Origin: Clostridiales bacterium
GTDB lineage: Bacteria; Bacillota; Clostridia; Christensenellales; Aristaeellaceae
Reading direction: 5' to 3'
Length of the DNA: 16,247 nt
Assembly: GCA_012514225.1 (NCBI GenBank)
Contig: JAAZAQ010000343.1
Coordinates: 1-16,247, forward strand
The notes under the pieces: generated by a model
Database searches by the model: none
What the model was told of the DNA's origin: nothing
What the model saw: the letters and a program-made list of their open reading frames with translations, nothing else
Shown here: positions 3,364 to 5,254 of the stretch, one piece after another
How positions within the stretch are numbered: position 1 is the stretch's first letter
How the letters are laid out: each line of letters starts with the position of its first letter
Translations under genes and position numbers: made by a program

Positions 3364-3624
3364 ATGAATCCGGAAACGCGGTGGCTGGCCGGGGAGATTG
3401 ACGCGGCCGCGGAAACGCCCGCCCTGCGCCGGCTGGCCGCCTATGAGCGCCTGCACAGGGACGTGCTGGGGGAACTGGAGGAGGCGGAGGCGCGGCTTTC
3501 GGCCTTGCGGAAGGAAGGCCGGGAAAAATCCGCGACCTTCCGGCAGACCCTGGGGCAGAAGCTGCTGCTGGCGCAGTTCGCCCAGCGCCTTTCACAGTGC
3601 CTGAAGGACGGCCATGGAAAATAA
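3364..3624 (+). CDS. Small helical protein, unknown function
   Basis: An 86-residue acidic/basic helical protein starting at ATG 3364 (a TTG directly before it is also in frame), with GGGGGA at 3352-3357 as ribosome binding site. It has no membrane segment or signal peptide. Residues about 28-60 form a charged helix with heptad-like spacing (ELEEAEARLSALRKEGREK), likely a coiled coil, followed by a more hydrophobic helix (LGQKLLLAQFAQRLSQCL). The size and layout weakly recall YlbF/YmcA-type proteins, but I would not assign it. It starts 11 bases after the CHR pair and overlaps thpR by 11 bases, so the four genes are probably co-transcribed. Its codon use is like its neighbours', which supports a real gene. 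Confidence 0.7.
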   Translation: MNPETRWLAGEIDAAAETPALRRLAAYERLHRDVLGELEEAEARLSALRKEGREKSATFRQTLGQKLLLAQFAQRLSQCLKDGHGK

Positions 3625-4183
3625 GAGCCAAAGAAGCATGCGCCTCTTCATCGCGGCCGGCCTGCCCGGAGCGCTCCGGGAGGAACTGGCGGCGGCGCAG
3701 GGCGCCCTGGCCGCGCAGGCCGTTCGCCTCCGGCCCACCCGCGCGGAGCAGCTCCACCTGACGCTGCGCTTCATCGGCGAGGCGGGGCCGGAGCAGGCGG
3801 AAGACGCCCTGGCGTGGTTCAAAGGCGTCCGGCTGCCTGAAAAAGGCGCGCTGGCGGCGCGCCTGGCCGCATACGGCAGCTTTCCGGGCGAGGGCGGGCT
3901 GACGCTGTGGGCGGGGCTGGAATGCGCGGACGCGGTACATGGGCTGGCGGACGCCCTGGAGCAGGGCCTGCGGCGCCTGGGCTTCGCGCCCGAGACGCGC
4001 GCCTTTCTCCCGCACGTGACCCTGGCGCGCAAGGCCGCGCTGAAACGCCCGCTTCAGGAACTGTCGAGCCTTCTGCCGACGGGCGCGGTCATGCTGGCCC
4101 TGCCGGACGTGACGCTGTTCGAGAGCGTGTTCACGCCGCAGGGCGTGCGGCATCTGCCCTGGGAGCGCAAGGCGGCTGTTTAG
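3614..4183 (+). CDS. thpR: RNA 2',3'-cyclic phosphodiesterase (2H/LigT family)
   Basis: A 189-residue protein of the 2H phosphoesterase superfamily. Both catalytic HxTx motifs are present: H48-L-T50-L (in QLHLTLRFIGE) and H134-V-T136-L (in FLPHVTLARK), with normal spacing for ThpR/LigT. These enzymes hydrolyse 2',3'-cyclic phosphates at RNA ends in the cytoplasm; the family was first noted for 2'-5' RNA ligase activity in vitro. AAGGA at 3604-3608 favours ATG 3614; a second start at 3638 (MRLFIAAGLP) would match the usual N-terminus more closely and cannot be excluded. The gene overlaps the small upstream frame. No strong plus-strand terminator follows directly; the first plus-strand hairpin with a T-containing tail is at 4459-4478. 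Confidence 0.92.
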   Translation: MENKSQRSMRLFIAAGLPGALREELAAAQGALAAQAVRLRPTRAEQLHLTLRFIGEAGPEQAEDALAWFKGVRLPEKGALAARLAAYGSFPGEGGLTLWAGLECADAVHGLADALEQGLRRLGFAPETRAFLPHVTLARKAALKRPLQELSSLLPTGAVMLALPDVTLFESVFTPQGVRHLPWERKAAV

Positions 4184-4204
4184 GCGGTCGGATCCGCATG
4201 ATAG

Positions 4205-4235
4205 AAAAAACAGGCCGGGCAAACATGACCGGCCT
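4205..4235 (-). terminator. Minus-strand intrinsic terminator at the left end of the repeat element
   Basis: On the minus strand, AGGCCGG and CCGGCCT (plus-strand 4229-4235 and 4212-4218) form a 7-bp stem with a 10-base loop. One base later come six Ts (plus-strand A run 4205-4210). It can end leftward transcripts, such as deoC read-through, before they run antisense into thpR. Confidence 0.65.
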
Positions 4236-4480
4236 CAGACTGTCAAAAAACCCTTTCATGGGAGGTATCGGAGGGCGAAGCCCTCTGATGGTAATCCGCG
4301 GCAGCGACATGTGCGGTGCCGCGGGTTTTGGCTATTGACAAAACATTTCCGCGAATTTCTGCTGGCCGTGAGGCAAGCATAGCGATGCCGAACAGGCAGA
4401 AATTCCCGTTCCTGCTTTATCAAAGAAATGTCCGCAGACACTTCTTTGACACACTGAGGCCGGGCAAACATGCCCGGCTT
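4211..4480. repeat. Structured non-coding element with inverted ends (MITE-like)
   Basis: This stretch fills the gap between convergent thpR and deoC and holds no credible gene. Its ends are imperfect inverted copies: the 16 bases at 4235-4250 match the complement of 4442-4457 at 13 of 16 positions. Outside each lies a hairpin sharing GCCGGGCAAACATG (4212-4235 and 4459-4478). Between the ends is a series of stems: GAGGGC/GCCCTC (4271-4276, 4280-4285), CCGCGGCA/TGCCGCGG (4296-4303, 4317-4324), ACATTTC/GAAATGT (4343-4349, 4425-4431) enclosing GAATTTCTGC/GCAGAAATTC (4353-4362, 4396-4405), and a small GCAT/ATGC stem inside that. It is less GC-rich than its surroundings. It could be a non-autonomous mobile element or a structured RNA; I did not recognise a known family. 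Confidence 0.6.
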
Positions 4481-4509
4481 GTCCGTTCCCGCCAGAGAAA
4501 GAGGCGGGT

Positions 4510-5160
4510 TCAGACCCCCTCGTAGGCCTTCAGCGCGGAGCTGGCGCCCACGCGGGCGCAGCCCTGGGCGATGTAGCCCTCGATGGCCTCCCGGGTGCGG
4601 ATGCCGCCGGCCGCCTTGATGAGGACGCCGGGCGCGAGGTACCGCTTGAACAGCTCCACATCCCCGGGCGTTGCGCCGGCGGGGCCGAAGCCCGTGGACG
4701 TCTTGATGAAGTCCGCCCCCGCCTCGCCGACACAGGCGCACAGGGCGATTTTTTCCTCCTCCGTCAGGTAGCAGGTCTCGACGATGACCTTGAGGATCTT
4801 GCCCTCGCAGGCCGACTTGACCGCGCGGATTTCCTCCGTCACCCGGCCGAAGTCCCCGGCCTTGGCGTCGCCCGGGTGGATGACCATGTCAATCTCGTCC
4901 GCGCCGTCGGCCACGGCCTGCTGGGTCTCGAACACCTTGACCCGGGTGGTGGAATACCCCAGGGGGAAGCCCACGACGGTGCAGACGGTCAGGCGGTTCC
5001 CGTACTTGTCCTTGGCCATCTTCACGAACCGCGGCGGGATGCAGGCGGACGTCATGCCGTTGTCCACCGCCTCCCGGCACACCCGGTCGACATCCCGGGC
5101 GGTCGCGTCGGGTTTCAGCAGCGTATGGTCCACATGTGAAAACACGGTTTTCTTGTCCAT
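4510..5160 (-). CDS. deoC: Deoxyribose-phosphate aldolase
   Basis: A 216-residue class I aldolase (DeoC, TIM barrel). It cleaves 2-deoxy-D-ribose 5-phosphate to glyceraldehyde 3-phosphate and acetaldehyde in deoxynucleoside breakdown. Seen directly: the N-terminal DHTLLKPDAT (11-20), the catalytic Asp in DEIDMVI (D91), the Schiff-base lysine in FIKTSTGFGP (K153), and the second active-site lysine in LIKAAGGIRT (K182). Length is normal. The frame is open further upstream, but ATG 5160 is the start: AAGGAG stands 7 bases before it, and a promoter at 5195-5223 would exclude the longer version. It stands alone, without deoA, deoB or deoD. Downstream it meets a CCCGCC/GGCGGG hairpin (4488-4508, no T tract) and then the minus-strand terminator at 4205-4235. 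Confidence 0.97.
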   Translation of the reverse strand: MDKKTVFSHVDHTLLKPDATARDVDRVCREAVDNGMTSACIPPRFVKMAKDKYGNRLTVCTVVGFPLGYSTTRVKVFETQQAVADGADEIDMVIHPGDAKAGDFGRVTEEIRAVKSACEGKILKVIVETCYLTEEEKIALCACVGEAGADFIKTSTGFGPAGATPGDVELFKRYLAPGVLIKAAGGIRTREAIEGYIAQGCARVGASSALKAYEGV

Positions 5161-5194
5161 CAGGTGTCTCCTTCCGGGCCGCAAAGCCCGCAAC

Positions 5195-5223
5195 AGCATA
5201 GCAAAGCACCCCCTCCTTTTCAA
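5195..5223 (-). promoter_or_regulatory. Promoter of deoC
   Basis: On the minus strand, TTGAAA (5223-5218), a 17-base spacer and TATGCT (5200-5195) lie 35 bases before the deoC start codon. No clear operator dyad is seen. Confidence 0.65.
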
Positions 5224-5246
5224 GTCTGAACGGGCTTTACACAGGG

Positions 5247-5254
5247 TATACAAT
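5247..5254 (+). promoter_or_regulatory. Possible -10 element for the GNAT-like gene
   Basis: TATACAAT at 5247-5254 sits at a suitable distance from the start at 5286 and in the short divergent gap with deoC. The -35 at correct spacing (TCTGAA, 5225-5230) is poor, so this is tentative. Confidence 0.35.

Follow-up and report, generated by a model that had tools for sequence, protein, structure and literature searches.

What occupies the stretch between thpR and deoC, and how did it come to lie there? In the window (the whole 16,247-nucleotide stretch of DNA that was analysed), thpR on the plus strand stops at 4183 and deoC on the minus strand stops at 4510, and the intervening stretch holds no gene, as the initial annotation of this DNA had stated. 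That annotation treated 4211–4480 as a single hairpin-rich element with inverted ends, capped by hairpins, and offered three identities for it: a MITE-like mobile repeat, a RAYT-type palindromic element or a structured RNA. The mobile element is narrower than this, spanning 4236–4456 (221 bp). We consider it very probable that it is a non-autonomous, MITE-like element moved in trans by an IS1182-family DDE transposase.

The region is strongly structured. The plus-strand fold has an energy of −130.1 kcal/mol, compared to a mean of −87.9 for shuffled sequences (z −7.96), and the minus-strand fold reaches −137 kcal/mol against a shuffled mean of −88.15 (z −9.45), with 0 of 200 shuffles as stable on either strand. 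These values agree with the earlier judgment that such order is unlikely by chance. The interior stems are present and their perfect 10-bp pair, GAATTTCTGC/GCAGAAATTC (4353–4362 and 4396–4405), is exact. The inverted ends were also recovered, with 13 of 16 bases matching between 4235–4250 and 4442–4457; they extend to 41-nucleotide arms of 78% complementarity because the flanking hairpins are themselves nearly palindromic.

Other copies define where the element ends. The window's own genome, G000, is a draft assembly that is 89% complete. Nine places in it match at E < 1e-50, namely the window itself and eight more with 94–97% identity, and six of the nine reach a contig end. All matches at the eight other places fall inside positions 26–258 of the 281-base query. 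Inspection by eye indicated that the similarity of the copies breaks off at the window's GCCGGGCAAACATG hairpins, that the flanking hairpins vary from copy to copy, and that different hairpins stand at the visible ends of the other copies; the left hairpin of the window is not common to them. The two GCCGGGCAAACATG hairpins therefore belong to the target and not to the element, and boundaries that take them in were ruled out by the copies with other flanks. Thus, the capping hairpins described earlier are real, but they are not part of the element. The two hairpins are alike at 22 of 24 bases, as a direct repeat, and are copies of one older hairpin that was doubled by insertion of the 221-bp element. 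The older hairpin was probably the deoC terminator. Coordinates are given in Table 1.

Table 1. Features of the thpR–deoC interval, with the evidence for each.
Feature	Position	Strand	Evidence
thpR, left gene, LigT-like phosphoesterase	3614–4183	+	Pfam LigT_PEase, 63.7 bits
Six-A run on the plus strand (six U in minus-strand transcripts from deoC)	4205–4210	−	Sequence
Left target-hairpin copy (target-site duplication)	4212–4235		22/24 bases as in 4457–4480; DNA hairpin z −5.16
Mobile element, 221 bp, no gene recognised	4236–4456		Dispersed repeat; ends set by direct repeat
Left terminal inverted repeat CAGACTGTCAAAAAAC	4236–4251	+	Element bases 1–12 as L258 1–12 (IS1182-type); 5–15 as L255 and L256 5–15 (co-terminal register)
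Interior stem 2 (ATCGGAGGGC/GCCCTCTGAT)	4264–4290		98.9% of cells paired, 17 copies
Interior stem 3, around conserved AGCGACATGYGCGGTG stretch	4296–4324		Two-sided changes in 6/11 pairs
Interior stem 4	4325–4344		Two-sided changes in 1/6 pairs
Interior stem 5, holds the GAATTTCTGC/GCAGAAATTC pair	4353–4405		98.7% of cells paired; two-sided changes 0
Right-end hairpin, overlaps right terminal repeat	4420–4449		Two-sided changes in 7/12 pairs; DNA z −5.82
Right terminal inverted repeat, CAGTGTGTCAAAGAAG on the minus strand	4441–4456	−	Element bases 206–216 as L255 1478–1488 and L256 1488–1498
Right target-hairpin copy (target-site duplication)	4457–4480		DNA fold z −4.91
deoC, right gene, convergent with thpR, start codon uncertain	4510–5253	−	Pfam DeoC, 78.8 bits

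The history of the site was compared by eye at 20 deoC loci of diverged relatives, the window's own counted in, and thpR adjoins deoC at four of them (the window's own among the four). The G001 thpR–deoC junction, read by eye in what is a diverged relative and not a literal empty site, has a single hairpin and no element. The element is likewise absent, by eye, from the junctions of the diverged genomes G010 and G004. At the window, the target would have been the hairpin downstream of deoC. For deoC transcripts, the left copy is followed by six U and the right copy has no U run, and such transcripts would run through the right hairpin and then the element, meeting the left hairpin last. As judged from the sequence, this left hairpin (4235–4212, then six U from 4210 to 4205) is a candidate minus-strand terminator. 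A simple terminator scan of 3900–4800 reported none, probably because the stem holds a mismatch, and the earlier proposal that the left end works as a minus-strand terminator is plausible. The outward-reading TTTGACA at each end, also noted earlier, is the motif of an IS1182-type terminal inverted repeat; no promoter-like sites, including outward-reading ones, were found in 3900–4800. Gene context was also taken from the longest open frames around the insertions: 25 of 35 rows had at least one gene 3′ end pointing towards the element, and the neighbours are apparently divergent in 4 of 35, values on which we do not rely because the method misread thpR at the window itself.

Relatives of the element are found well beyond its own genome. 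Some match at E ≤ 1 occurs in 49 of 60 genomes (G000 counted), although most of these are short words of little meaning. Near full-length copies are present in G003 and G009, and left-half relatives in G006, G016, G023 and G031; the left half recurs in other genera. In genomes of named species, the motif CAGCGACATGYGCGGTG marks at least 119 stretches; among the 80 matches listed, 56 carry Clostridia- or Bacillota-type labels, several of them Christensenella or Limiplasma, and 24 come from other or unlabelled bacteria. The window probably belongs to the order Christensenellales. The own and related genomes thus hold multiple copies, so the region is not single-copy. No flanking coding sequence common to copies of different genomes was found (300-base flanks, loci below 560 bases dropped), and the structure is therefore apparently maintained in an element that moves, as opposed to copies at fixed loci. 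Within genomes, one flank match was seen in G009 and several in G006; those of G006 probably consist of element sequence. Of 10 G009 copies examined by eye, 2 keep the flanking repeat, and the core is kept where terminal repeats are worn.

Some copies have features of their own. L084, L085 and L091 of G009, in which the terminal repeats are worn or missing, keep the core and, by eye, have a hairpin and T run shortly before it, at the left-end position. Length variants, each common to several copies (L079–L082, L088, L094, L095, L101 and L102), differ in loop size: the stem 5 loop has approximately 80–90 extra bases in the G003 form, and the stem 3 loop holds a longer insert in G009 and G006. 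At L074 (G003), the flanking hairpins look mutually inverted, with the loop CAACAG on the left and CTGTTG on the right.

Of 33 window-family copies from G000, G003 and G009, 17 entered a structure alignment; truncated copies and copies with long extra loops were left out. Across its 56 predicted pairs, 98.0% of cells pair and two-sided changes occur in 15 pairs, a result that none of 500 shuffles equalled on both measures, cells paired and two-sided changes, with the caveat that the structure was derived from the same alignment it was scored on, which favours structure. Slid structures, used as a control, paired in 38–47% of cells. Further pair types were not above shuffles (117/500).

These compensatory changes bear on the earlier suggestion of a structured RNA, under which the copies would have spread and been kept for an RNA function, with the transposon ends incidental. 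The pairing statistics are what such an RNA gene or element would produce, as is the kept core in the 8 of 10 examined G009 copies that have no flanking repeat. However, compensatory changes can also come from DNA hairpin repair, the further pair types give no added signal, and the ends and duplications are of the transposon type. The copies share no flanking coding sequence between genomes and are not seen at fixed loci. In Rfam, no match was found at the gathering score and no family reaches its cut-off; two weak matches scored 17 and 14.5 bits (cut-offs 111 and 49.5) at E values of 0.34 and 0.62. We therefore consider a structured RNA unlikely, even though the compensatory changes in the interior stems that it called for are present. 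For a mobile element, the changes in the interior stems may reflect selection on RNA or DNA, or hairpin-perfecting repair, and either selection on the folded element or such repair may explain why the stems persist. A more specific proposal, which we put forward tentatively and think somewhat improbable, is that the covarying interior has a function of its own, as a folded DNA strand or RNA on which the element depends, in a family that moves by cutting at the feet of extruded cruciforms, with the host hairpin setting the duplication length. If true, the interior could, for example, capture the IS1182 transposase or make the element tolerated downstream of genes.

Elements with the same ends belong to several families, and hairpin repeats flank many of them. 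The end motif CAGRCTGTYRAAR has 20 matches in G000 and 41 in G023, and its reversed pattern has 0 in each. In the other 12 genomes searched, 2 to 14 matches were found against 0 to 5 for the reversed pattern, so many of those are chance. Direct repeats made of a local hairpin stand beside such ends, and extend over 32 bases at L021 (perfect), 32 in L166 and 27 in L190. A downstream direct repeat scoring at least 14 was detected for 42 of 163 left ends, a set that takes in chance motif matches inside genes and counts some elements from both strands, compared to 7 of 3248 swapped-flank controls. Many of the 121 left ends with no such repeat are probably chance motif matches inside genes.

The 42 left ends represent 32 distinct insertion sites; an earlier count of 35 rows took both strands of L024, L155 and L315, and the recount gave the same picture. 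Elements at these sites measure about 140 to 365 bases and fall into several families. Their repeats are 14 to 37 bases long (at least 20 in 28 of the sites) and nearly all are local hairpins. When the 32 empty sites were modelled, no more than 2 of 200 shuffles equalled the stem in 20 sites, and no more than 10 did so in 26; in the other six it was equalled by more than 10, and one of these, L378 (175/200), has no hairpin. The hairpin feet sit at the repeat ends, with median offsets of 0 and +1, and hairpin span correlates with repeat length (r 0.59). These observations weigh on another account of the doubled hairpin, in which tandem terminators came first and the element settled between them, or in which recombination made the flanks alike, with no duplication at all. 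Unlike hairpins on the two sides of three IS1182 elements (see below) would suit it, yet repeats are perfect or near-perfect at many sites, their non-palindromic loops are in direct orientation, and swapped flanks so rarely give a comparable repeat that we regard this account as highly unlikely.

Doubling of the hairpin by insertion, which we prefer, is also seen at two IS1182 transposons of the same bacterial family, one of them clearly intact. A profile search for IS1182 covered 40 relatives and found matches in 15 of them, all below the cut-off, and the weak IS1182-like genes of close relatives were rejected as a parent, all being below the family cut-off. Across 396 genomes of the order, matches at E ≤ 1e-60 came from 13 (17 loci), and ends of the CAG type were readable in three of these loci (L238, L239 and L249), with hairpins on one or both sides. 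A protein search of 308 genomes of the same bacterial family gave matches at E ≤ 1e-15 in 29, from which 30 loci were fetched. L255 is intact, 1493 bp long, with an open 479-residue transposase (NCBIfam IS1182, 415 bits, cut-off 270). Its ends, CAGCCTGTCAAAAAAGG and CTTCTTTGACAAGCTG, are as in the window element, and a perfect 25-bp repeat that is itself a hairpin, AAACCACCCGTCAAACGGGTGGTTT, flanks it. L256 is organised likewise, with a repeat of 20–21 bases and a frame open for 449 codons (410 bits, over the NCBIfam cut-off). L258 shares these ends but is bordered by two unlike hairpins, and its transposase frame is in two pieces. Both ends could be read with enough flank in 6 of 47 IS1182-type loci: the hairpin is duplicated in L255 and L256, unlike hairpins stand on the two sides of L239, L249 and L258, and L238 has a hairpin on one side only.

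The window element agrees with these transposons at its ends in co-terminal register (Table 1). Against the IS interior, only scattered words of 9–13 bases match, some scoring as high as the ends, and the end agreement therefore rests on position. No IS1182 transposase match was found in the G000 draft, where a single DDE_Tnp_1_6 match lies below cut-off (E 0.085), and none was detectable in the element-rich genomes G000, G006, G009 and G023. The L255 protein found no match in the drafts G006, G009, G016, G023 and G031 and only weak matches in G003 (1e-7 and 0.0015), below the NCBIfam cut-off. Multi-copy elements may drop out of draft assemblies. Among the weak IS1182-like genes of close relatives, an end-motif scan of the 30 loci L207–L236, allowing one mismatch, gave three matches. 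Of these, L221 alone resembled the end of an element, being a fragment at a contig end and preceded by a hairpin; L222 and L236 are one site seen twice.

Together, the dispersed core, the same-end elements with hairpin repeats, and the ends and duplication common to L255 and L256 point to a non-autonomous IS1182-type miniature that targets terminator hairpins. The MITE-like identity suggested at the outset is thus borne out by multiple copies, common ends, a target-site duplication and ends like those of IS1182 elements. As is typical of MITEs, the element is short, present in several copies per genome and without a transposase gene; no transposase frame was found inside its 221 bp. Its terminal inverted repeats are common with L255, L256 and L258, in co-terminal identities of 11–12 bases, and L255, L256 and L258 differ from it in being approximately 1.5 kb with a transposase gene. 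Its duplication is of the kind made by the autonomous L255 and L256, which double the whole hairpin, while the four other IS1182 elements with both ends read differ. No autonomous partner was found in G000, and only the ends match the IS beyond chance words, as opposed to an interior derived from it by deletion; neither is required of every MITE.

The palindromic character of the element, its intergenic position here and its strong subterminal right-end hairpin are also features of REP/RAYT-type elements, moved by a Y1 transposase related to IS200/IS605. IS200/IS605-type insertion leaves no duplication, so this identity is contradicted by the target-site duplication; terminal inverted repeats are present as well, and a search for a Y1 transposase found none in four of five carrier genomes tested (G000, G006, G009 and G023) and some in G003. 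The RAYT-type identity named in the initial annotation is accordingly extremely improbable. We know of no whole-hairpin target duplication by REPIN/RAYT, BOX, RUP or SPRITE elements. These elements, the last from pneumococcus, resemble the window element in being short, palindromic and dispersed, but they have different transposases and ends (PMC10969869, accessible portion).

For the window element we propose that the transposase would recognise the hairpin of an intrinsic terminator, probably extruded as a cruciform, and attach both 3′ ends of the element to the target, one on each strand, at the hairpin's 5′ foot. The two cuts would then lie a whole hairpin apart, and gap filling would leave a full hairpin on each side. 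Under this scheme the target hairpin, not the transposase, would dictate how long the duplication is, which is unusual for DDE transposons. The doubling of the terminator is a possible reason why such insertions are tolerated, as each side retains an intact hairpin. In annotation, two terminators separated by a hairpin-rich filler may be insertions of this kind.

IS1182 elements that target hairpins are already known (PMC3098183, PMC4923244 and PMC5678879, in the text available from each). According to the accessible part of PMC3098183, all insertion sites but one of ISCbo5, an IS1182-family element of Clostridium botulinum group III and C. novyi-NT, are gene-end hairpins thought to be transcription stop signals. 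ISCbo5 thus resembles the window element in family and in site, but it is an IS with the transposase family name and not a miniature, and that part of the paper mentions the surrounding hairpin and describes neither a hairpin target duplication nor miniatures. IS1272 and TnSha1, also of the IS1182 family, target stem-loops with no sequence consensus, several of them terminators (PMC5678879 and PMC4923244, excerpts). The window element also inserts into a stem-loop; however, its hairpin is present twice, whereas IS1272 takes the place of the stem-loop or deletes part of it, without any duplication (PMC5678879, excerpt). Within the IS itself, the IS1272 transposase gene lacks a stop codon (PMC4923244, excerpt), and L255 is similar, with a transposase that lacks its own stop codon within the element. 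At L255 2566–2568, the stop codon is formed by the last two IS bases and the first base of the target repeat.

A hypothetical pathway in which 3′ ends join at the 5′ feet of a cruciform, doubling the whole stem-loop, is set out in the available text of PMC5678879. The outcome at the window fits the doubling branch of this model, for which we infer a cruciform as the substrate. As far as that text goes, the model left open whether a hairpin-targeting transposase doubles the hairpin instead of removing it. The 32 small-element sites, nearly all hairpins, and the two IS1182 elements with the same outcome make the doubling branch directly testable. In the literature searched on terminators, hairpins, IS1182 and MITEs, no title or abstract opening concerned small IS1182 elements that double a whole hairpin, and the available part of PMC3281130 has nothing on hairpins. 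The small, structured, hairpin-doubling form is new as far as this literature shows. IS1182 entries in ISfinder reportedly have direct repeats ranging from 0 to 60 bp, and long duplications may already be recorded there.

Several further insertions were noted among the same-end elements. In G023, 17 of the 41 end-motif matches lie 122–161 bases away from where a contig starts, which may point to a family that expanded recently and interrupts the assembly. A second miniature family in G000, approximately 180 bp long (L021, L170, L171, L174, L155, L169, L024 and L030), has ends like CAGACTGTCGAAAAAGGTC and AAGGTTTTTTGACAGCCTG and whole-hairpin repeats. Two 180-bp elements, L010 and L017 (G000 contigs C264 and C119), lie inside the hairpin AGAAGTGTCCGCRGACACTTCT, which has the sequence of the right-end hairpin of the window family. 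As AGAAGTGTCCGCRGACACTTCT also occurs singly in that family, this is close to an empty-site comparison and to a nested insertion. Finally, at L009 (G000 contig C159, about 1–350), a window-family copy runs directly into a further CAGGCTGTCGAAG end, with the hairpin appearing again 211 bases later; two successive insertions in one terminator may account for this.
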